A DNA stretch of 64,000 bases from Rugalucina vietnamica (lineage: Eukaryota > Mollusca > Bivalvia > Lucinida > Lucinidae), in NCBI GenBank assembly GCA_964017185.1, contig OZ024879.1:39768383-39832382 (forward strand), read 5' to 3'. The notes beneath the pieces are model-generated. The model made no database searches and was not told where the DNA came from. It saw only the letters and a program-made list of their open reading frames with translations. Of the stretch, positions 3,208 to 60,880 are shown piece by piece. Numbering within the stretch: position 1 is the first letter of the stretch; each line of letters starts with the position of its first letter. Both the position numbers and the translations under genes were made by a program.

Positions 3208-3885
3208 ACGTAGTCTACAGACCTCACTACGTCTTCACTGCGTACGCGCTGCGACCATCAGGTTGTTGAAACGACCATTTCACGCTACTCGCACGTCCTA
3301 AACACGCCCTAGAAGACTGGGTGCGTTCATATGGTCGCTGAGAACACTTAAAAAATTAAAAGTTCCGAAGTGTTCTAAAATGTTGACAATAGTTTCAAAG
3401 AAAGAAAATATTGCTAATTAGTGATTAAATTATGCCGCATATGATAAGATATGTGTTAAACATTTTTCTCTAATATGAAAATAGCAACACGCGATTGCCG
3501 AAATTATGTGCAGTACAAACGCGCGCTATGTCGTATGACGTAAACATAAATGATAGCATACACGAACTTTGTTTCCCAACACTGTGTTAGAACGTGCTGA
3601 GAGCGTAGTACGCGCGTGGCGTGAACTGCTTCGTCCTCGTGAGGACGTTGTAAGGAGGTAGTGGAAACGGGATGAGCTTGGTGAGCGCGTGGTGAGACCT
3701 AGTGGAAACGTGAAGGACTAGTAAGGACGTAGTGCAGACGTATTTAAGGACGTGATGAGGACGAAGTATAGACTTAATACCCCCAAATTGTCATTTTTAC
3801 CCCGTCCGCGCCACTTCCTTGAATTGATTAGGACGTAGTAAGGACGTGGCGAGAACGTGGTCCAGTGTAGACGTAATATTAGGCT
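3208..3885. mobile_element. Iteron-rich element (GACGTAGT/GACGTGG)
   Basis: The two sides carry opposite-strand versions of one short word. The left side has 'cctcactacgtcttcactgcgtac'-like sequence. The right side has repeated 'aaggacgtagt', 'gaggacgtggtgagaacg' and 'gtggaaacg'. This subterminal-iteron layout is typical of non-autonomous DNA transposons. Exact ends and target duplication were not found. It abuts repeat D1. Confidence 0.45.
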
Positions 3886-3890
3886 TTTTA

Positions 3891-4316
3891 GATCACCTGA
3901 GCCGAAGGCTCACAGGTGAGCTTATAGTATACCCATTCTCCGTCGTCCGTCGTTGTCGTCGTCGTCGTCCACACTTTTCATACATCTTCTTCTCTGAAAC
4001 CGCTCGGCCAATCAAAGCCAAACTTCATGTGGAGCATCCTTAGGGAGGGGGAACGAAAGTTTGTATAAATGGTCATTGTCACATGACCAAGATGGCCGCC
4101 ATGGCTATAAATAGCAAAAACCTTATAAATCTTTTTTTCAGAGCCGGTCGACCTATGATTTTGAAACTTTGCTTTAAGCATCAGTGAGTGGAGCTCTAAA
4201 AAAGTTTGTAAAAATCATAACTCCGAGATGACCTTGACCTATTTCTATGGCAAGATCAGCTAAAGTCGCATATCCAAGATCTTAGGTGAGCGTTTACAGG
4301 ACCGTTGGTCCTCTAG
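3891..4316 (+). mobile_element. Family D element, copy D1 (single unit)
   Basis: Starts with a hairpin, TCACCTGAGCC-gaa-GGCTCACAGGTGA, followed by a CGTCGTCC microsatellite. It carries one ~400-bp core ('cttcttctctgaaaccgctcggcc', 'gaccaagatggccgcc'). It ends with AGGTGAGCG and a second hairpin, AGGACCGTTGGTCCT. The layout resembles bivalve pearl/Helitron-like elements (core repeat plus GTCC microsatellite). That class assignment is from general knowledge, not shown here. Confidence 0.65.
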
Positions 4317-5816: not shown

Positions 5817-6191
5817 AATTTTTATTTGCTATTACTGCAGCTGGTGTTGTGCCGTGTGGCGGCCCTAAAAAGTCTCCCCGTACATCATCCATAGTGCAGG
5901 TTATATTTTCTTTTTGGTCCTTTGAGATCAGCGAAGATATTGTGAGAACTCAGAAATTTTTTATCGGTTTAGATTCATTTTCTAGCCAATGTTTAATATA
6001 TTTGGCCCCATTTAGATAACACCAGTCTTTGTTGAAAGTTGCAAAATTTCAGTAATTCTCTTTGGCTCCATGTTGCCAAATCTAAAGGGTCACTGACGAG
6101 ACTTCAATAGTCGAAACCGCGGTATGGCCCATCACCTTTTCTCATTAATGTGTTCACTGCTCTTAAAGGATCTCAGTTTTAATTCTTATTT
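5817..6191 (+). mobile_element. Family C hammerhead-bearing repeat, copy C1
   Basis: About 375 bp, matching C2 (16883-17285) along its length ('ctgcagctggtgttgtgccg', 'tctccccgtacatcatcc', 'ctcttaaaggatctcag'). It carries a complete hammerhead ribozyme at 6087-6130 about 60 bp from its right end. It has no ORF. The size, lack of coding capacity and single ribozyme fit the non-autonomous 'retrozyme' class reported from invertebrates, whose transcripts self-cleave and circularise. Mobilisation by LINE or Penelope-like machinery is inference. Confidence 0.75.
6087..6130 (+). ncRNA. Type-I hammerhead ribozyme (in C1)
   Basis: All core parts are in order. Stem I 5' strand is GGGTCA (6087-6092); core CTGACGA (6093-6099, fits CUGANGA); stem II is GACT-tcaat-AGTC (6100-6112); GAAA (6113-6116); stem III is CCGCGG (6117-6122); UA precedes the predicted cleavage site after 6124; stem I 3' strand is TGGCCC (6125-6130). 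Stem I pairs over six positions: five Watson-Crick pairs and one G-U. Stem III is self-complementary and too short to close alone, as in known hammerheads that work best as dimers. Confidence 0.85.
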
Positions 6192-9575: not shown

Positions 9576-9640
9576 CTTCAGTGCTCTCATCTAAAGCCAC
9601 TGAAGAATTCAATGCTCTTGGTCCAGAGGTATGCGTTTAT

Positions 9641-11314
9641 AGCTCACCTGAGCCGAAGGCTCACAAGGTGAGCTAATAGGATAGCCATGATCCGGCGTCC
9701 GTCCGTCCGTCGTCCGTCCGTCGTCGTCCACAATTTCAAAGATCTTCTTCTCTAAAACCGCTTGGCCGATCTAGTTGAAATTTTATGTGGAGCCTCTTTG
9801 GGTAGTGGCATTTCAAGTTTGATCGCGAAATCCAGGTCACATGACCAAGATGGCCGCCACGCCCATATATGGTAAAAACCCTTCAAAAATCTTCTTCTCC
9901 AGAACCGGTGGGCTGATTTCCACGAAACTTGGCATGTAGCATCGGAGACCTCAGCCCATAAAAGTTTGATAAAATGATGACCCTTGGATGACCTTGACCT
10001 ATTTTACGGCAAGGTCAAATTTTGAAACATAGGCTTTTACATAGGAAAAAGTGAAAACTATGGAATTTTTTGAAAACTGTTGCAGCCTGAGGCCTGAAAA
10101 GTGGTAGATGCAAACAACTAATGGAGTAGATGAAGGTATGTGATTAATATAGGTCAAGGTCATCTCTTGACCTTGGCCAGTCTGTTGTCCATAAACAGTT
10201 TTCAAAGATCTTCTTCTCTGAAACTGCGCGGCCAATCAAAGTGAAATTTTATGTGGAGCATCCATGGGTAGGGGAGACGAAAGTTTGATCGCGAAATCCA
10301 GGTCACATGACCAAGATGGCCGCCACGCCCATATATGGTTAAAACCACTCAAAAATCTTCTTCTCCAGAACCGGTGGGCCGATTTCCACGAAACTTTGTA
10401 TGTACTATCGGGGACCTCAGCCCATCATAGTTTGATAAAATGATGACCCTTGGATGACCTTGAATTATTTTACGGCAAGGTCAAATTTGGAAACATAGGC
10501 TTTTACATAGGAAGAAGTGAAAACTATGGATTTTTTGAAAACTATTGCAGCCTGAGGCCTGAAAAGTGGTAGATGCAAACAACTAATGGAGTAGATGAAG
10601 GTATGTGATTAAAATATAGGTCAAGGTCATCTCTTGACCTTGGCCAGTCTGTTGTCCATACACACTTTTCAAAGATCTTCTTCTCTGAAACTGCTTGGCA
10701 AATCAAAGTGAAATTTTATGTGGAGCATCCATGGGTAGGGGAGACGAAAGTTTGATCGCGAAATCCAGGTTACATGACCAAGATGGCCGCCACGCCCATA
10801 TATGGTAAAAACCTTTCAAAAATCTTCTTCTCCAGAACCGGCAGGCCAATTTTCATGAAACTTGGTATGTAGCATTTGAGACTCCAGCCCATCATAGTTT
10901 GTTGAAATGATGACCCTATGATGACCTTGACCTATTTTACGGCAAGGTCAATTTTGGAAACATAGGCTTTCACATGGGAAAAGGTGAAAACAAACTGTTG
11001 CAGCCTGAGACCTGAAAGTTGCTAGATGCAGACAACTAATGGAGTCAATGAAGGTAAGTAATTAATGAAGGCCAAGGTCATGTCTTGACCTTGGCCCAAG
11101 GTCATTTAAATATCAAAATTAAAATTATGGGTTTCTCAGAAATCACTGGGTTTGGAAACTATTGCAGCCTGAGACCTGAAACTTTGCAGATGCAGACAAC
11201 TTATGAAGTCAATAAAGGTATGTGAGTATTCAAGGTCAAGGTCATTTCATTATGACTTAATACTCCAAGATCAGGCTTCAGGTGAGCGTTGTTAGGACCA
11301 ATGGTCCTCTGGTA
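9641..11314 (+). mobile_element. Family D element, copy D2, three 467-bp units
   Basis: Begins with the hairpin GCTCACCTGAGCC-gaa-GGCTCACAAGGTGAGC, then a CGTCC microsatellite (9687-9730). Tandem units follow, starting at 9734, 10201 and 10668 (period 467); each contains 'ttcaaagatcttcttctc' and 'ccaagatggccgccacgccc'. It ends with CAGGTGAGCG and the hairpin AGGACCaATGGTCCT. The 9999-10235 (-) ORF is a by-product of the tandem units. Confidence 0.7.
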
Positions 11315-16882: not shown

Positions 16883-17285
16883 TCTCAGTTTTAATTTTTA
16901 TTTGCTATTACTGCAGCTGGTGTTGTGCCGTGTGGCGGCCCTAAAAAGTCTCCCCGTACATCATCCATAGTGCAGGTTATATTTTCTTTTTGGTCCTTTG
17001 AGATCAGCGAGGATATTCTGAGCAATCAGAAACTTATAATCGGTCAAGATTCATTTTCTTACCAATGTTTAATATACTAGTAGTTGGTCCCATTTAGATA
17101 CTACTAGTCTTTGTATCGACTACCCTGTTGAAAGTTACAAAATCAGTAATTCTCTTTGGCTCCATGTTGCCAAATCTAAAGGGTCACTGACGAGACTTTA
17201 ACAGTCGAAACTGCGGTATGGCCCATCCCCTTTCTCATTAAAGTGTTCACTGCTCTTAAAGGATCTCAGTTTTAATATTTATTTT
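16883..17285 (+). mobile_element. Family C hammerhead-bearing repeat, copy C2
   Basis: Matches C1 throughout. Its left edge starts with TCTCAGTTTTAAT (16883-16895), the same word that closes the element (17264-17276; also the right end of C1). C2 therefore begins with the tail of a preceding unit, as in a head-to-tail array with a unit of about 381 bp. C1 lacks this extra word on its left, so it is not simply a target duplication. Confidence 0.75.
17181..17224 (+). ncRNA. Type-I hammerhead ribozyme (in C2)
   Basis: GGGTCA (17181-17186), CTGACGA (17187-17193), stem II GACT-ttaac-AGTC (17194-17206), GAAA (17207-17210), stem III CTGCGG (17211-17216), UA, predicted cut after 17218, TGGCCC (17219-17224). 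Compared with C1 the loop II sequence differs and stem III has one C-to-T change that a U-G pair tolerates. The catalytic core and all stem I/II bases are unchanged. Confidence 0.85.
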
Positions 17286-17294
17286 CTATTTCTT

Positions 17295-20792: not shown

Positions 20793-21073
20793 CATCACGA
20801 AAACATGTCCGTTTAATGTTTACCCCCTTGAACCCAACTTTTATATAGTAAAACTGGGGTTTGCAGGGGTATGTCTATTTTTCTTATTTTTGCTCCAAAA
20901 CATAGATTGTGGGTACTCGTTATAACCGCCTCGCCGAGGCGGTTCTAACGTGTACCCACAATCTGTATTTTGAGCAAAAATAAGAAAAATATCATTTTTT
21001 TTTTCAGCTAAAAATTTTCAATTTTTAAAGCTCAAAAAAATTCTGTATATTGCATGGGCATGTTTTCGTAATG
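20793..21073 (-). mobile_element. Family B fold-back element, copy 5
   Basis: Ends CATCACGAAAACATGTCC and GGGCATGTTTTCGTAATG. The central palindrome is essentially perfect over ~45-bp arms, centred on CCTCGCCGAGG. Confidence 0.85.
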
Positions 21074-21158: not shown

Positions 21159-21438
21159 CATTACGAAAACTTGCCCATGCAATATATAGAGATTTTTTTC
21201 ACCTGTAAAAATTGAAAATTTCATCAGAAAAAAATTCGATATTTTTCTTATTTTTGCTCAAAACATTGATTGTGGGTACACGTTAGAACCGCCTCGGCGA
21301 GGCGGTTCTAACGAGTACCTACAATCTATGTTTTGGAGCAAAAATAAGAAAAATAGGTATACCCCTGTAAACCCCAAATTTACTATATAAAAGTGGGATT
21401 TAAGGGGGTATTCGATACTCGGACATGTTTTCCTGATG
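21159..21438 (+). mobile_element. Family B fold-back element, copy 6
   Basis: Ends CATTACGAAAACTTGCCC and GGACATGTTTTCCTGATG. It lies 85 bp from copy 5 in the opposite orientation, so the pair forms a larger inverted repeat. The 21258-21446 ORF is within it. Confidence 0.85.
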
Positions 21439-21670
21439 TGTTTCAAATGACAAACCTTTCAAAGTTCATGTAAGGTGGATATTTGCATTTAGCTGAGTGT
21501 GTTTTTTTTTTCATCTTCGTGATTTTATTTGTCTATTTATTTATTTATTTATTTATTCATTTTTTGTTGTAAAATATACACATCGTGACTAAAAGTTACC
21601 GACGTCCTCTCAGAAACCAGGTAAAGATCAGTGGAATTTGTAGTATACTGTGGTGCACGTGATAAAACAT

Positions 21671-26683: not shown

Positions 26684-26963
26684 CATCAGGAAAAAATGTC
26701 CATGCAAAGTTTACCCCCTTGAACCCCACTTTTATATAGTAAAACCGGGGTTTGCAGGGGTATACCAATTTTTTCTTATTTTTGCTCCAAAACATAGATT
26801 GTGGGTACTCGTTAGAACCGCCTTGCCGAGGCGGTTCTAACGAGTACCCACAATCTATGTTTTGGAGCAAAAATAAGAAAAATATTGAACTTTATCTAGT
26901 GAAATTTTCAATTTTAACAACTTAAGAAAAATCTGTATATTACATGGCCAGGTTTTCGTTATG
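26684..26963 (-). mobile_element. Family B fold-back element, copy 9
   Basis: Ends CATCAGGAAAAAATGTCC and GGCCAGGTTTTCGTTATG. The palindrome arms are the most perfect in the window: 'gagcaaaaataag' to 'cgttagaaccgcc' on both sides. Confidence 0.85.
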
Positions 26964-27039
26964 ATATGCCCCTCTGATTACTGGTTCGCGGCTAAAGCTG
27001 AACCTGATAAAAGTGGTTCAAGTCAATCCATCAATACAT

Positions 27040-32695: not shown

Positions 32696-33198
32696 AAAAG
32701 CATAGAACATTGGAGAAAACTATTCCCCGGCGGCGTGGCAGATTTTGGTTGCCACGTATAGTCATTTAAAGAACAGTGACACCTTGCATTTGGCCTTATA
32801 ATCGTACATCCCTCGCAGAAATACGTGAAATAGACATCATACGCAATTTGAATAGTTCCTTAGGCATGCACTATCAAACGGTGACATTCTCGATAATAGG
32901 TTTCTAGGAGCAGCGCTTTTCATCGATAGCTGTTATGATGTAGATGAACACTCTCACAAAACATAACGGTTTGATAAAACAATTAGCCCAAGGGCAACGA
33001 TCGCTCACCTAGAGTCAATGAGTGCAGTCACTGCAAAAAAGAAAAGTAGTTGGTGTCTTTACCATATATGGACATGGTGGCCACCTCTATCTTTTCATAT
33101 CCTCATTTAGTCTCATGTACTTCCACTTCAAGCTTAGGTCAGATAATGATGCCTCTGGGGCGAGGCCTGTATGAAGCACAGGGACATAGTTGGCAAGA

Positions 33199-33654
33199 TT
33201 TATAAAGAGGAGAACTATACATTGTTACACATAAAATATGTAAGCTCTGAGAAGATATGAGCCTGTGCGTGAGAAAACCAACAATTTGGGTTCCCACCAG
33301 GTCCGACACAAACCAGCCTGTACAGTCACAGAAGCAGGCTAGAAGCTTGAAATTTCGGATTTAAGAAGAAGAGGGATTGTACTATCCATGTAGCGAAAAC
33401 AAAGGCGCTGATCAGCTTCGCGGTTACCGCGAAGCTGATCTGCGTCTTTGTTTTCGCATTTGCAAATTGTTGGTTTTCTCATGCACAGGCTCATATGTTT
33501 TTCCCACTGTAAGTCTATGGGAGCTATCCAGACGTATGATGCGACTTGGCCGAAAACCCAAACATTTCCCCCACCGCAATGATTTATTATTTGGCTCTAT
33601 TTGGATAATACTAGTCTATGTATTGACTATCCTGTTGAGAGTTGCAAAATTACA
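33199..33654 (+). repeat. Segmental duplication, copy 1
   Basis: Matches 34847-35304 once the family A insert is removed ('tataaagaggagaactatac', 'cccactgtaagtctatggg', 'gttgagagttgcaaaattaca'). It holds family A copy 12 at one site, while the site used by copy 13 in the other duplicate is intact and empty ('aatgatttattatttggctc' at 33579-33598). Confidence 0.8.
33259..33492 (+). mobile_element. Family A MITE, copy 12 (TSD ATAT)
   Basis: 234 bp, 'gagcctgtgcgtgagaaaacc' to 'ggttttctcatgcacaggctc', flanked by ATAT (33255-33258, 33493-33496). The uninserted relative in the other duplicate reads 'gaagatgtatgttttt' (near 34900). Confidence 0.85.
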
Positions 33655-34845: not shown

Positions 34846-34846
34846 A

Positions 34847-35304
34847 TTTATAAAGAGGAGAACTATACATTGTTACACATAAAATATGAAAGCTCTGAGA
34901 AGATGTATGTTTTTCCCACTGTAAGTCTATGGGAGCTATCCAGACGTCTGATGCGACTTGGCCGAACACCCAAACATTTCCCCCATCGCAATGATTTGAG
35001 CCGCCTCGTGGGAAAACCAACAATGTGGTTTTTGACCAGATCTGACACAAACTGGCCTGTACAGTCACAGAAGCAGGCTAGAAGCTTGAAATTTTGGGGT
35101 TAAGTAGAGGAGGAATTGTAGTATCCTATTAGCGAAAACAAAGGCGCTGATCAGCTTCGCGGTTACCGCGAAGCTGATCTGCGCCTTTGTTTTCGCCTAT
35201 GCAGATTGTTGGTTTTCCCATGGGGCGGCTCATTTATTATTTGGCTCTATTTGGATAATACTAGTCTATGTATCGACTATCCTGTTGAGAGTTGCAAAAT
35301 TACA
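34847..35304 (+). repeat. Segmental duplication, copy 2
   Basis: Partner of 33199-33654; carries family A copy 13 instead. Its right side continues into a decayed family C repeat. Confidence 0.8.
34998..35231 (+). mobile_element. Family A MITE, copy 13 (TSD ATTT, empty site known)
   Basis: 234 bp, GAGCCGCCTCGTGGGAAAAC to GTTTTCCCATGGGGCGGCTC, flanked by ATTT (34994-34997, 35232-35235). The uninterrupted target at 33579-33598 fixes the element ends to the base and shows that ATTT is duplicated on insertion. The ORFs 34829-35103 are by-products. Confidence 0.95.
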
Positions 35305-35412
35305 GTATTTCGCTTTGGCTCCAATTTGTCGAATCGAAAGAGTCATTTAAGAGGCTGAAGTCGCCGAAACCGCGGTATGTCACTGCTCTTAAAGGATCTC
35401 ATTTTTATTTTA
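35236..35412 (+). repeat. Family C repeat, decayed copy C3
   Basis: Contains 'tttggctccaatttgtcg', 'gccgaaaccgcggtatg' and 'ctcttaaaggatctca'. The hammerhead remnant (35338-35380) keeps stem II (GGC/GCC), GAAA, CCGCGG and UA. The CUGANGA core reads TTTAAGA and stem I no longer pairs, so it should be inactive. Confidence 0.65.
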
Positions 35413-37133: not shown

Positions 37134-38519
37134 TTAGTATAGTGAAAGACCATGTGTTAGCTGTTTTAGAAAACGGAAACAAGCAACTCCTAGATGGACC
37201 ATGTCATCCTGGTGAATTACTGTTGTGAATGACAACCCTAAGAGTTTCACAAGAAGGTCCGATATAGGACTGGACGATAATTCGTGTGCTATATCGTAGC
37301 CGAATCTAACAGCAATATAGTTGATGAACAGAAACACCTGTCCCCTAGTGGCTTGACAGTCTGCTAATAAATGAGATAAAATATCCGGTCTGAACGATCC
37401 GCACAAATGACATTCACGAATGAGCGTTGGCTTCATTACCCATAGTTTTGCCACGGTTGCAGTTAAGCGTCTGTCTTTTATCATTGCGTCCATGTTGTAA
37501 ATAGAGGCAGGCGCTATTGACGTATGTAGCCGTCTAAATCGCGTAAAGTCCGGATCTCGGCCTATTCTACTGAGCCATTGTCTACTTTCATATTGTCTTA
37601 TTGCACTATTTACAATACGTTTCCATGAAAACTTTCCTGGAAATTGTAAGGTATGCAGGTATTGGTGTAGATGATTTTCAAGATTATATTTGGATAATAT
37701 AGCCATTATGTCGGAAACAAATCCAGAGTCAATACCATGGTCAAGGAACATGTAAAGTTTAAAGTGAAGTAGTCTATTTGGCACTGAATAATGAGATAGT
37801 CCACATAGAGTTCCTAAGAATAATAACTTTCTTCTTTCTACTTCAAATGAAAGACTACTTGCGCCAACCATGGATTCGCACATGTCTGTACGCACATACT
37901 TATGAAATCCTTGTATCTTTTTAACTGCCATTCTCTGGAATTTATTTATTTCATATACATCACATGTTTTCAATTTATTCCAGACTTCACAGCCGTATAA
38001 TACAGTGGGCATAACGGCTTTCCTGTAAAGATCAATGGAAGTTTTTGGATTAAGCCCACAAGGGCGTACGCCAATATCTGCCATACTGAACAATGAGGAT
38101 GTTCCCTTCGCACACGCGTCCCTAACTCGTGATGATAAGGAGCGATTTGATTCCTGCTTTATTCCTAGATGTACAGTCGCGCTACTTTGCGGGATAAGCT
38201 TCCTGCCAAGGTACACAGATATTGTTTGTTGAATCGTTCTTGTATTTTTTCCAAATATGACGACACATGACTTGTCTGCATGAAACTCATAATGATATTT
38301 ACAAGAATGAGCATATGCGATATTCACAAGAATTTGTAAGTTACGAAGTGAATTAGCCACAAGAACGCCGTCATCCACATAAGTTGGGCAACAGCAATCA
38401 ATGGATCCAATTTTGCACCCTTTGTTACTTCTCTCGAGTTCAGTTAATAAGTCGTCGTTGTAGACTAAATACAAAAACGTTGACAAAACGCCTCCTTGCC
38501 TTACCATAATATAAGTCCT
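37134..38519 (-). pseudogene. LINE reverse transcriptase, C-terminal part
   Basis: A 461-codon intact frame (the two apparent start methionines come from the adjoining family B element). Residues 8-20 (VRQGGVLSTFLYL) and the YVDD box (49-52) are the RT catalytic motifs. The thumb/connection region follows, then a C-terminal zinc knuckle CHLCGSFRPDILSHLLADC (372-390, CX2CX9HX4C) and stop. The fingers domain and endonuclease are missing because family B copy 13 sits exactly at the break. Non-LTR class is clear; clade not assigned. Confidence 0.85.
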
Positions 38520-38800
38520 CATCAAGAAAACATGTCCGTGTAATGTATACCCCCTTTTACCCCCACTTTTATATAGAAAAATTGGGTTTTATAGAGGTAT
38601 ACATTTTTGTTTGTTTTTGCTCCAAAACAAAGATTGTGGGTACTCGTTAGAAACGCTTCGACGAGGTGGTTTTAACGTGTACCCCTAATCAATGTTTTGA
38701 GCAGAAATATAACAAAACATCAATTTGTTTTCCATTGAAATTTTCAATTTTTAAAGCTGAAACAGTTCTCTGTATATTACATGGGCAAGTTTTCATAATG
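38520..38800 (-). mobile_element. Family B fold-back element, copy 13 (in LINE)
   Basis: Ends CATCAAGAAAACATGTCC and GGGCAAGTTTTCATAATG. Joins the RT frame at 38519. The 166 bp beyond it (38801-38966) did not translate into recognisable RT. Confidence 0.85.
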
Positions 38801-41943: not shown

Positions 41944-42075
41944 TATGCTGATGGCCGAATCAATAACATTTTGGCCAAACTAATCATATAAGGTCACAAT
42001 TCTCATTTCATATTTAAATTCATACATTTTATCACTGAGTCGTAGTTCATATGGACGCAAATATATTCTTAATAA

Positions 42076-42359
42076 CATTACGAAAACACGCTCATGCAAT
42101 ATACAGTGAGAGATTTTTTAAGTTGTAAAAATGGAAAACTTTCATCAGAAAAAAATTTGAGATTTTTCTTATGTTTGCTCAAAACATAGATTGTGGGTTC
42201 ACGTTAGAACCGCCTCGCCGAGGCGGTTCTAACGAGTACCCACAATCTATGTTTTGGAGCAAAAATAAGAAAAATAGGTATACCCCTGTAAACCACAGTT
42301 TTACTATATAAAAGTGGGGTTCAAGGGGGTATATATTACAAGGACATGTTTTCGTGATG
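42076..42359 (+). mobile_element. Family B fold-back element, copy 15
   Basis: Ends CATTACGAAAACACGCTC and GGACATGTTTTCGTGATG. Intact palindrome. Confidence 0.85.
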
Positions 42360-42639
42360 AGTACTTTGATGGAATAAGCGATACTATGGCATTCGCGTAA
42401 CCATTACGCGACCTGTTTTATTAGCAGTATCAGAAAATTAATCTGTCGTACTACAATACTTCAGTTCCAGCTATATAGAAACATATGTGTATGCTTGATT
42501 TCGTGCTGACAGTCCCATGTCAATCATTTCAATTTACGGTCATTGATCCAATTTGCTACCTACACAGTTCCCGAAACGTACGAATAACAGGGGCAAAAGA
42601 AAACCACCAGCGGAACCCTGGTGGGTCAATCAAAACAGA

Positions 42640-43653: not shown

Positions 43654-43931
43654 CATCAGGAAAACATGTCCGTGCAATGTAAACCCTCTTAAACCCCACT
43701 TTTATATAGAAAAACTGGGGTATGCAGGGGTATACCTAGTTTTCTTATTTTTGCTCCAAAACATAGGTTGTGGATACTCGTTAGAACCGCCTTGGAGAGG
43801 CGGTTCTAACGTGTACCCACAATCTATGTTTTGAGCAAAAATAAGATAAATATAAAAAATTTTCTACTGAAATTTTCAATTGTTACAACTTAAAAAATCT
43901 CCTTATATTGCATGGGCAAGTTTTCGTAATG
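43654..43931 (-). mobile_element. Family B fold-back element, copy 16
   Basis: Ends CATCAGGAAAACATGTCC and GGGCAAGTTTTCGTAATG. Palindrome apex 'ccgccttggagaggcgg' has one mismatch. Confidence 0.85.
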
Positions 43932-44559: not shown

Positions 44560-44601
44560 ATGGTGGAATCAGTTGCTGTGGAAGCAGAAGAATTTCAAGA
44601 A

Positions 44602-44880
44602 CATTACGAAAACATGCCCATGCAATATACAGAGAATTTTTGAGCTGTAAAAATTGAAAAATTTTTAGCTGAAAATTTTTGATATTTTTCTTATTTTTGC
44701 TCAAAACATAGATTGTGGGTACACGTTAGAACCGCCTCGGCGAGGCGGTTCTAACGAGTACCAACAATCTATGTTTTGAGCAAAAATAAGAAAAATATGT
44801 ATACCCCTGCATACCCCAGTTTTGCTCTATAAAAGTGGGGTTCAAGGGGGTATATATTACACGGACATGTTTTCATGATG
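44602..44880 (+). mobile_element. Family B fold-back element, copy 17 (in reading frame)
   Basis: Ends CATTACGAAAACATGCCC and GGACATGTTTTCATGATG. Removing 44602-44880 joins '...GAA TTT CAA GAA' to 'AAA CGA TTC CAA...' in frame, so the element inserted cleanly without visible loss or a long target duplication. Confidence 0.85.
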
Positions 44881-45124
44881 AAACGATTCCAAATCCCCAC
44901 AGAGGATGACTTACAGACATTGTTGGGAGAAAAGGACTCAAAAACACTAAACGTACAATCGCTGGCGCAGTGAAATGTTTCAGAGATTTTCTAAAGGAGG
45001 CCGGAAAGTCAGAGAATTTCGAATCATTCTAAAAGGAGGAATTAAATGAATGTTTAGATATTTCTATGCAGCTGCTAGAAAATCAAATCGGGAGGTCGGC
45101 AGTACAAAGTTATAGATATGGGTT

Positions 45125-50091: not shown

Positions 50092-50370
50092 CATTACGAA
50101 AACTTGCCCAATGCAATAAACAAAGATTTTTGAGCTTTGAAAATAGATAATGTCCAGCTGAAAAATGTTGATATTTTTCTTATTGTGGCTCAAAACATAG
50201 ATAGTGGGCACACGTTAGAACCGCCTCGACGAGGCGGTTCTAACGAGTACCCTCAATCTATGTTTATTAGCATCAATAATAAAAGTAGGTAAACCCTTAC
50301 ATTACCCAGTTTTGCTATATAAAAGTGGGGTTCAAGGGGGTATACATTACACGGACATGTTTTCGTGATG
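50092..50370 (+). mobile_element. Family B fold-back element, copy 18
   Basis: Ends CATTACGAAAACTTGCCC and GGACATGTTTTCGTGATG. Palindrome CCGCCTCGACGAGGCGG at the centre. Confidence 0.85.
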
Positions 50371-59404: not shown

Positions 59405-60880
59405 ACCTGAAATATAGGTCGAGGGGACCAGGTCAAGGTATGTTCTGAAAGGGTATGTCAAGGACATTTACTATGCAAGATTTCACACTCACAGCTATCA
59501 CAGGTGCAGAGAAAACCAAAGTTTGACATAAAAATTAACAAGTCAATGGACCATGAAATATAGGTCAAGGTCAGCGGGTCAAGGTGCATGCTTGACGGGT
59601 ATGTCAAGGACAATTACTATGTAAGGTTTCACACTCGCAGCTATCACAGGTGCAGAGAAAACCAAAGTTTGACACAAAAATTAACAAGTCAATGGACCAT
59701 GAAATATAGGTCAAGGTCAGCGGGTCAAGGTGCATGCGTGAAGGGTATGTCAAGGACAATTACTATGCAAGGTTTCACACTTGCAGCTATCACTGATGCA
59801 GAGAAAATCAAACTTCGACATAAAAATGAACAAAGTCAATGGACCTTGAAATATAGGTCAAGGGCACTGGGTCAAGGGGCGTGCTTGAAGGGTATGTCAA
59901 GGACAATTACTATGCAAGGTTTCACACTCGCAGGTATCACTGATGCAGAGAAAACCAAACTTCGACGTAAAAATTAACAAAGTCAATGGACCGTAAAATA
60001 AAGGTCAAGGGCACCGGGTCAAGGTGCATGCTTGAAGGGTATGTCAAAGGGTATGTCAAGGACAATTACTTTGCAAGGTTTCACACTCGCAGGTATCACT
60101 GATGCAGAGAAAACCAAACTTCGACATAAAAATGAACAAAGTCAATGGACCGTAAAATATAGGTCAAGGGCACCGGGTCAAGGTGCGTGCTTGAAGGGTA
60201 TGTCAAGGACAATTACTATGTAAGGTTTCACACTCGCAGCTATCACAGATGCAGAGAAAACCAAAGTTTGACACAAAAATTAACAAGTCAATGGACCATG
60301 AAATATAGGTCAAGGTCAGCGGGTCAAGGTGCATGCGCGAAGGGTATGTCAAGGACAATTACTATGCAAGGTTTCACACTTGCAGCTATCACTGATGCAG
60401 AGAAAATCAAACTTCGACATAAAAATGAACAAAGTCAGTGGACCTTGAAATATAGGTCAAGGGCACTGGGTCAAGAGGCGTGCTTGAAGGGTATGTCATG
60501 GACAATTACTATGCAAGGTTTCACACTCGCAGGTATCACTGATGCAGAGAAAACCAAACTTCGACGTAAAAATTAACAAAGTCAATGGACCGTAAAATAA
60601 AGGTCAAGGGCACCGGGTCAAGGTGCATGCTTGAAGGGTATGTCAAAGGGTATGTCAAGGACAATTACTTTGCAAAGTTTCACACTCGCAGGTATCACTG
60701 ATGCAGAGAAAACCAAACTTCGACATAAAAATGAACAAAGTCAATGGACCGTAAAATATAGGTCAAGGGCACCTGGTCAAGGTGCGTGCTTGAAGGGTAT
60801 GTCAAGGACAATTACTTTGCAAGGTTTCACGTTCCTAGCTCTCACTAATGTAGAGAAAACCAAACTTCAACGTAAATGTT
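59405..60880. repeat. Family E tandem array, 146/147-bp units
   Basis: About ten units marked by 'gggtatgtcaaggacaatta' at 59451, 59597, 59743, 59890, 60037/60049, 60196, 60342, 60489, 60636/60648 and 60795. Units also share 'ggtttcacactcgcag', 'gatgcagagaaaaccaaact' and 'atataggtcaagg'. The ORFs inside are repeat translations, since 147 is a multiple of three. Confidence 0.9.
59597..60794. repeat. 599-bp higher-order repeat, two copies
   Basis: 59597-60195 and 60196-60794 are near-identical blocks of four units. Each ends with a unit carrying the private 12-bp duplication 'gggtatgtcaaagggtatgtc' (60037 and 60636, exactly 599 apart). Confidence 0.85.

Follow-up and report, generated by a model that had tools for sequence, protein, structure and literature searches.

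A Complete Type I Hammerhead Motif in a Short Dispersed Repeat of a Bivalve-Like Genome, Probably a Non-LTR Retrozyme

Introduction

The known retrozyme cycle comprises the cutting of multimeric RNAs, the closure of the resulting units by a host ligase, and their copying by a borrowed reverse transcriptase (PMC7229834). In Mytilus galloprovincialis, non-LTR retrozymes occur as repeats of 350–390 bp (Cervera and de la Pena 2020, PMC7229834), and the mussel ribozymes are described as being without most of the usual loop contact bases (PMC7229834); circles cloned from the mussel have the GenBank accessions MN642551–MN642576 (PMC7229834). A palindromic stem III was noted earlier in mosquito and other hammerheads (PMC3088659), and in newt and axolotl, dimers cut far better than monomers (PMC7229834); the dimer-type stem III is described as less usual among invertebrates (PMC7761336).

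Here, we describe a dispersed repeat embedding a hammerhead motif in a stretch of 64 kb (37.55% GC, with many dispersed repeats), which is referred to as the window. The repeat shares with the Mytilus retrozymes the type I hammerhead, a short, non-coding, low-GC unit, the size (364–381 vs. 350–390 bp), and, probably, the mollusc host, a likeness that concerns description, size and features rather than compared sequences (PMC7229834).

Results

The Hammerhead Motif

An earlier sequence-only reading had proposed a complete type I hammerhead in this repeat, and the window sequence agrees with that proposal letter for letter. Every constant position is present at 6087–6130 (+), in the order GGGTCA / CUGACGA / GACU-UCAAU-AGUC / GAAA / CCGCGG / UA / UGGCCC; the core is intact, stem II has 4 bp, the cleavage triplet is GUA, and stem I consists, as had been claimed, of six pairs including one G-U. 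A second complete motif and a decayed one lie in two further copies of the repeat (C2 and C3; the first copy is C1):

6087..6130 (+): C1 hammerhead, type I, complete (sequence and descriptor; Rfam RF00163 match at 6090–6127)
6087..6092 (+): 5' strand of stem I, GGGUCA, pairing with 6125–6130
6093..6099 (+): core CUGACGA, fitting CUGANGA in the sequence
6100..6112 (+): stem II (4 bp) with loop UCAAU (descriptor and pairing check)
6113..6124 (+): GAAA, palindromic stem III CCGCGG and UA, with predicted cleavage 3' of 6124 (sequence and dimer fold)
6125..6130 (+): 3' strand of stem I, UGGCCC, pairing with 6087–6092
17181..17224 (+): C2 hammerhead, type I, complete (descriptor and alignment)
35340..35383 (+): C3 hammerhead, decayed, core UUUAAGA (two constant positions changed; 4/6 stem I pairs)

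The constant core CUGANGA...GAAA...UH, together with stems I, II, and III and an open stem I, is found in C1 and C2, and C3 lacks it.

To these motifs, we applied a loose descriptor (CUGANGA, stem II of 3–6 bp with a loop of 3–15, GAAA, stem III of at least 2 bp, U-H, and stem I of at least 4 bp), which, with both strands of the 64-kb window searched, matched exactly two sites, 6093 and 17187. A further descriptor search, extended to the minimal Penelope-type without stem III, revealed no hammerheads in the window beyond the two intact ones. Moreover, the pattern of core plus stem II, with up to three mismatches, gave two matches against 0.03 expected, a number that none of 100 shuffles reached.

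The structural covariance search that had been asked for lent no support at the curated level: the Rfam hammerhead I model aligned the whole C1 core with 15.6 bits (E 2.6), under the cut-off of 34 bits, which is a curation threshold and not a structural feature; the C2 hammerhead was absent from the matches at E up to 10, and the scan of the whole window at gathering thresholds returned zero matches.

The low Rfam score would be compatible with a chance resemblance within an ordinary repeat. Nevertheless, the same loose descriptor gave a single match among 300 random 64-kb sequences (single strands, first-order Markov), yet two homologous intact copies stand here. Public sequences were probed as well. 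The family pattern had no matches in viral_contigs, and the head-block pattern had none there either; plasmids gave zero matches, and the loose core pattern occurred at 97 places in viral_contigs and at least 119 in genome_contigs. Among these, the 216 listed loci with the core spacing are taken as chance because none of them folds as a complete hammerhead at the site by a descriptor whose spacer range is narrower at both ends than that of the loose core pattern (one weak match lay elsewhere). On the random-strand, shuffle, and public-locus controls, a chance origin was rejected, its probability being negligible, and 6087–6130 is a genuine hammerhead motif.

Copies and Boundaries of the Repeat

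According to BLAST, C1 (5817–6191) and C2 (16893–17284) are 88.1% alike over 395 columns. The two intact hammerhead copies are about 11 kb apart and carry one hammerhead each, and the claim of a non-coding host repeat of about 375 bp, present more than once, holds within this window. The copies and fragments are as follows:

5817..6191 (+): copy C1, non-coding, roughly a single unit of 364 nt with 11 nt of overlap (BLAST to C2, end analysis)
16883..17290 (+): copy C2, a single unit of 381 nt with 27 nt of terminal redundancy (BLAST, end analysis)
16883..16909 (+): 5' copy of the C2 terminal redundancy, 25/27 identical to 17264–17290
17264..17290 (+): 3' copy of the C2 terminal redundancy, 25/27 identical to 16883–16909
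35283..35410 (+): fragment C3 (BLAST, 80.4% over 97 and 93.5% over 31)
33577..33654 (+): fragment C4 (BLAST), inside a block duplicated with the C3 locus

The units of 364 and 381 nt have a GC content of 39.0% and 39.4%, respectively, and both are non-coding, the longest stop-free stretch being 66 codons in C1 and 61 in C2. In the retrozyme class, the unit is non-coding, of about 150–450 bp, with a GC content below 50% and a type I hammerhead, and both copies have these features. C3 and C4 are counted once because they belong to one duplicated block of the window: the block 33198–33654 / 34846–35304 holds C4 and part of C3, and each of its copies is interrupted at a different point by one repeat family of about 245 bp.

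The window contains other repeats as well. A family of about 280 bp occurs in both orientations, with some close inverted pairs (20793–21073, 21159–21441, 26684–26965, 42071–42360, 43654–43931, 44597–44881, 50092–50370, and others). There are tandem arrays of a 147-bp unit (59408–60876, about 10 copies, accompanied by a 12-bp short repeat at two places) and of a 467-bp unit (9734–11096, three copies), and the segments 3885–4258 and 9636–10017 are 74.5% alike.

No tandem array of the hammerhead-bearing unit was found in the 64-kb window, where both intact copies are solo; the published animal retrozymes are, by contrast, tandem (PMC7229834). Nor did C1 and C2 have a convincing target-site duplication, the best candidates scoring no higher than 1823 and 1342 of the 2000 shuffles.

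None of 2000 shuffles attained the score of the 27-nt redundancy of C2, which 14 of 2000 random window pairs with comparable spacing did. The C1 overlap (10/11; 5817–5827 / 6181–6191) lies at a place matching that of C2 and is not significant alone, since 434 of the shuffles and 198 of the random pairs (2000 each) scored as well. The sequence is unbroken across the cleavage site in both C1 and C2. Because the two copies are continuous through the cut site and C2 exceeds one unit, the template should have been a circle or an uncut multimer; the RNA template was thus probably circular or uncut, and a cut linear monomer would be excluded in this role.

The ends of C1, C2, and C3 cluster in a single AT-rich stretch, one end of C3 being near the end stretch of the other two. 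If junctions fell at random on a circle of 372 nt, the grouping of three of them within 27 nt would have p = 0.016, a value framed post hoc and including C3, which is only a fragment. Such grouped ends, which resemble a fixed 3' tail, and the solo, dispersed copies might also be read as those of SINE-like or other linear non-LTR elements incidentally holding a hammerhead, in which the ribozyme would trim RNA ends and no circle would form. We regard this as unlikely, since the terminal redundancy of C2 requires a template longer than one unit and the ribozyme is internal to the copy and not terminal. Moreover, an ARAGORN scan of the window gave no tRNA, and neither the A-box nor the B-box had a match in C1 (generic box consensus) that was better than shuffles, the best ones being reached by 480 and 672 of 1000, respectively; a SINE promoter or tRNA origin was rejected on these results.

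Divergence among the Copies

The substitutions between C1 and C2 are unevenly distributed, the head block being nearly identical and the middle strongly diverged:

5817..5946 (+): head block, 128/130 identical to C2 16893–17022 (alignment; Fisher test)

The head block has 2 substitutions in 130 positions, and the middle has 15 in 102 plus 22 gap columns (head vs. middle, Fisher test, p = 1.6e-4); there are 0/36 before the ribozyme, 3/44 within it, and 4/55, with a single gap column, behind it. Any of three processes could account for this pattern: selection acting on the outer blocks, gene conversion, or template switching.

The three differences between the C1 and C2 ribozymes all fall in loop II or inner stem III, none of them at constant positions; with 10 of the 44 positions deemed free, a choice made post hoc, their confinement to free positions has p = 0.009. 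In C3, two constant core positions are altered and a deletion after UAUG leaves 4/6 of the stem I pairs, so the C3 ribozyme is most likely dead. The sequence-only reading had named random decay of core and stem positions in copies across the genome as evidence against the ribozyme: one of the three copies (C3) is decayed and the cores of C1 and C2 are intact, a sample of three being too few to decide. Stem II of C3 has one compensatory change, from A-U to G-C; covariation was discarded as support, since 186 of 500 shuffles perform equally well for a set of three sequences.

The decayed C3 copy speaks for another possible origin of the repeats, i.e., scattered monomers of a DNA satellite that spread by excision as DNA circles and re-insertion, the ribozyme being an old remnant. 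The unit size and the partial redundancy would be equally expected of a DNA circle; the unit, though, is not in a tandem array in the window, and no constant core position has been lost from the two intact ribozymes, against 15/102 substitutions in the middle block. A satellite origin therefore appears quite improbable.

Folding of Stem III, Dimers, and Circles

Stem III reads CCGCGG in C1 and CUGCGG in C2. In the C1 monomer, apart from the constant A-U, stem III could comprise only a single C-G pair, which closes a loop of CGCG; when paired, two C1 copies have a stem III of 8 bp (A-CCGCGG-U). In the cofolds, the double hammerhead is the minimum-energy structure for both C1 (−35.1 kcal/mol vs. 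2 × −12.5 for the monomers) and C2 (−29.1 vs. 2 × −11.5 kcal/mol), these energies leaving out RNA concentration and tertiary contacts. The C-to-U change in stem III of C2 keeps the pairing in the dimer as G-U. In the ensemble predicted for pieces of 58 nt, the monomer hammerhead has a share of about 0.1%, a value possibly too low as it is computed without tertiary terms.

Stem III is thus predicted to favour the two-ribozyme dimer. The earlier suggestion that its self-complementarity points to dimeric cleavage stands insofar as the double hammerhead is the predicted minimum-energy form for both copies, this being the outcome of folding models. The closest parallel in form is the newt and axolotl HHR_Amex1, whose stem III of one bp, capped by a palindromic tetraloop, favours dimer cleavage and to which C1 (C-CGCG-G) is alike (PMC7229834). 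The amphibian hammerhead repeats are tandem and of 330–350 bp, whereas C1 and C2 are solo, and the likeness is one of form and not of compared sequences (PMC7229834). Most invertebrate retrozymes, on the other hand, are reported to have hammerheads with efficient self-cleavage (PMC7229834), whereas the element described here is predicted to favour the dimer.

The predicted C1 and C2 circles are more stable than their dinucleotide shuffles (z = −2.71 and −3.45, respectively; 100 shuffles each, 39% GC), with a predicted pairing of 60% vs. more than 70% quoted for the class in PMC4918200. The predicted C1 circle contains 9/12 hammerhead pairs (stem I 5/6, stem II 4/4, stem III none) and that of C2 0/12; blocking of the ribozyme by the circle fold was set aside, as these two values give no common picture.

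Coding Context of the Window

Of the 22 ORFs of at least 100 aa in the window, 15 were scanned in Pfam, and the single match above the curated cut-off was RVT_1. This reverse-transcriptase domain (E 3.6e-7) is in a 484-aa frame at 37137–38588 (minus), whose closest protein is 80% identical over 77% of the frame. Eight of its 30 relatives carry an organism name, and all eight are from a bivalve or bivalve-symbiont assembly (Mytilus galloprovincialis, Mytilus edulis, Magallana gigas, Pinctada imbricata, and a Solemya gill symbiont assembly). The host is therefore likely to be a bivalve. Nothing links this reverse transcriptase to the retrozyme.

The same scan bears on the possibility that the repeat is the non-coding part (pseudo-LTR) of a Penelope-like element and not a separate retrozyme. 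Such elements have type I hammerheads, tandem or partial-tandem copies and, in some cases, short tails (PMC11167929). Their ribozymes, however, are described as minimal, without helix III or the usual loop contacts (PMC7761336), C1 and C2 both end at about unit length without coding sequence, and the sole curated Pfam match, RVT_1, lies at a distance of about 20 kb (C2) and 31 kb (C1); no GIY-YIG was listed in the 15 of 22 ORFs of at least 100 aa that were scanned. In more general terms, Penelope-like elements are protein-coding and have minimal hammerheads, whereas the unit described here has no coding sequence and combines complete stems I and II with a stem III that is palindromic (PMC11167929, PMC7761336). 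We consider the pseudo-LTR origin very improbable.

Discussion

The body of data presented here makes it likely that a non-autonomous non-LTR retrozyme gave rise to C1 and C2 by insertion into the genome of a bivalve-like animal. The assignment to the invertebrate retrozyme class made in the sequence-only reading is partly sustained, namely by the complete type I hammerhead, by its host repeat, which is dispersed, short, non-coding, low in GC, and of a size usual for retrozymes, and by the redundancy of C2, which fits a circular or multimeric template; the solo state of the copies in the window speaks against it. The element would most likely add a further family to the retrozymes, which are already on record from molluscs as well, and its palindromic stem III is not a new feature. 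A text search, without sequence comparison, of open-licence PubMed Central found no publications on this element among the titles and opening parts of abstracts that were listed.

In principle, the life cycle of the retrozyme might be depicted as follows:

i. Tandem source copies would be transcribed.

ii. Two hammerheads, either in one multimeric RNA or in two RNAs, would join via the palindromic stem III to form the double hammerhead.

iii. The double hammerhead is predicted, from the folding and from known newt-type ribozymes, to cut after position 6124.

iv. A host RNA ligase would close the unit of 364–381 nt into a circle, a closure by ligase that has been demonstrated in vitro with other retrozymes of this class (PMC7229834).

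v. A reverse transcriptase from an autonomous element would start in the AT-rich stretch, away from the ribozyme, as the ends of the copies suggest.

vi. Reverse transcription would proceed for about one lap plus an overrun of 11–27 nt, after which the cDNA would be inserted, as the same ends suggest.

Steps v and vi lead to a more specific scenario, which we put forward as a tentative and rather doubtful one: bivalve retrozyme copies would start and end, with an overrun of 11–27 nt, in one fixed AT-rich stretch of 27 nt of the circle, away from the ribozyme, and this pattern would have been left by a reverse transcriptase of the Penelope type that starts inside the circular RNA and copies one lap. 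Together with a mainly-dimer hammerhead, cutting mainly while the RNA is multimeric, the finished circle would be protected. The cluster of ends recalls two features of Penelope-like elements, that is, the short extensions at copy ends and the internal start of reverse transcription (PMC11167929).

The enzyme moving animal retrozymes and the way in which the circles escape self-cutting are both left open in the excerpts of PMC7229834 and PMC7761336. If neither the fixed ends nor the dimer idea holds, the element is one more family of the known retrozyme class. If true, the fixed-end footprint would link retrozymes to a proposed but unproven helper. As for self-cutting, a dimer-type ribozyme offers a simple answer, a lone circle being half of an active pair; a mainly-dimer hammerhead, if true, would protect the finished circle against re-cutting, and cleavage would take place mostly while the RNA is multimeric.
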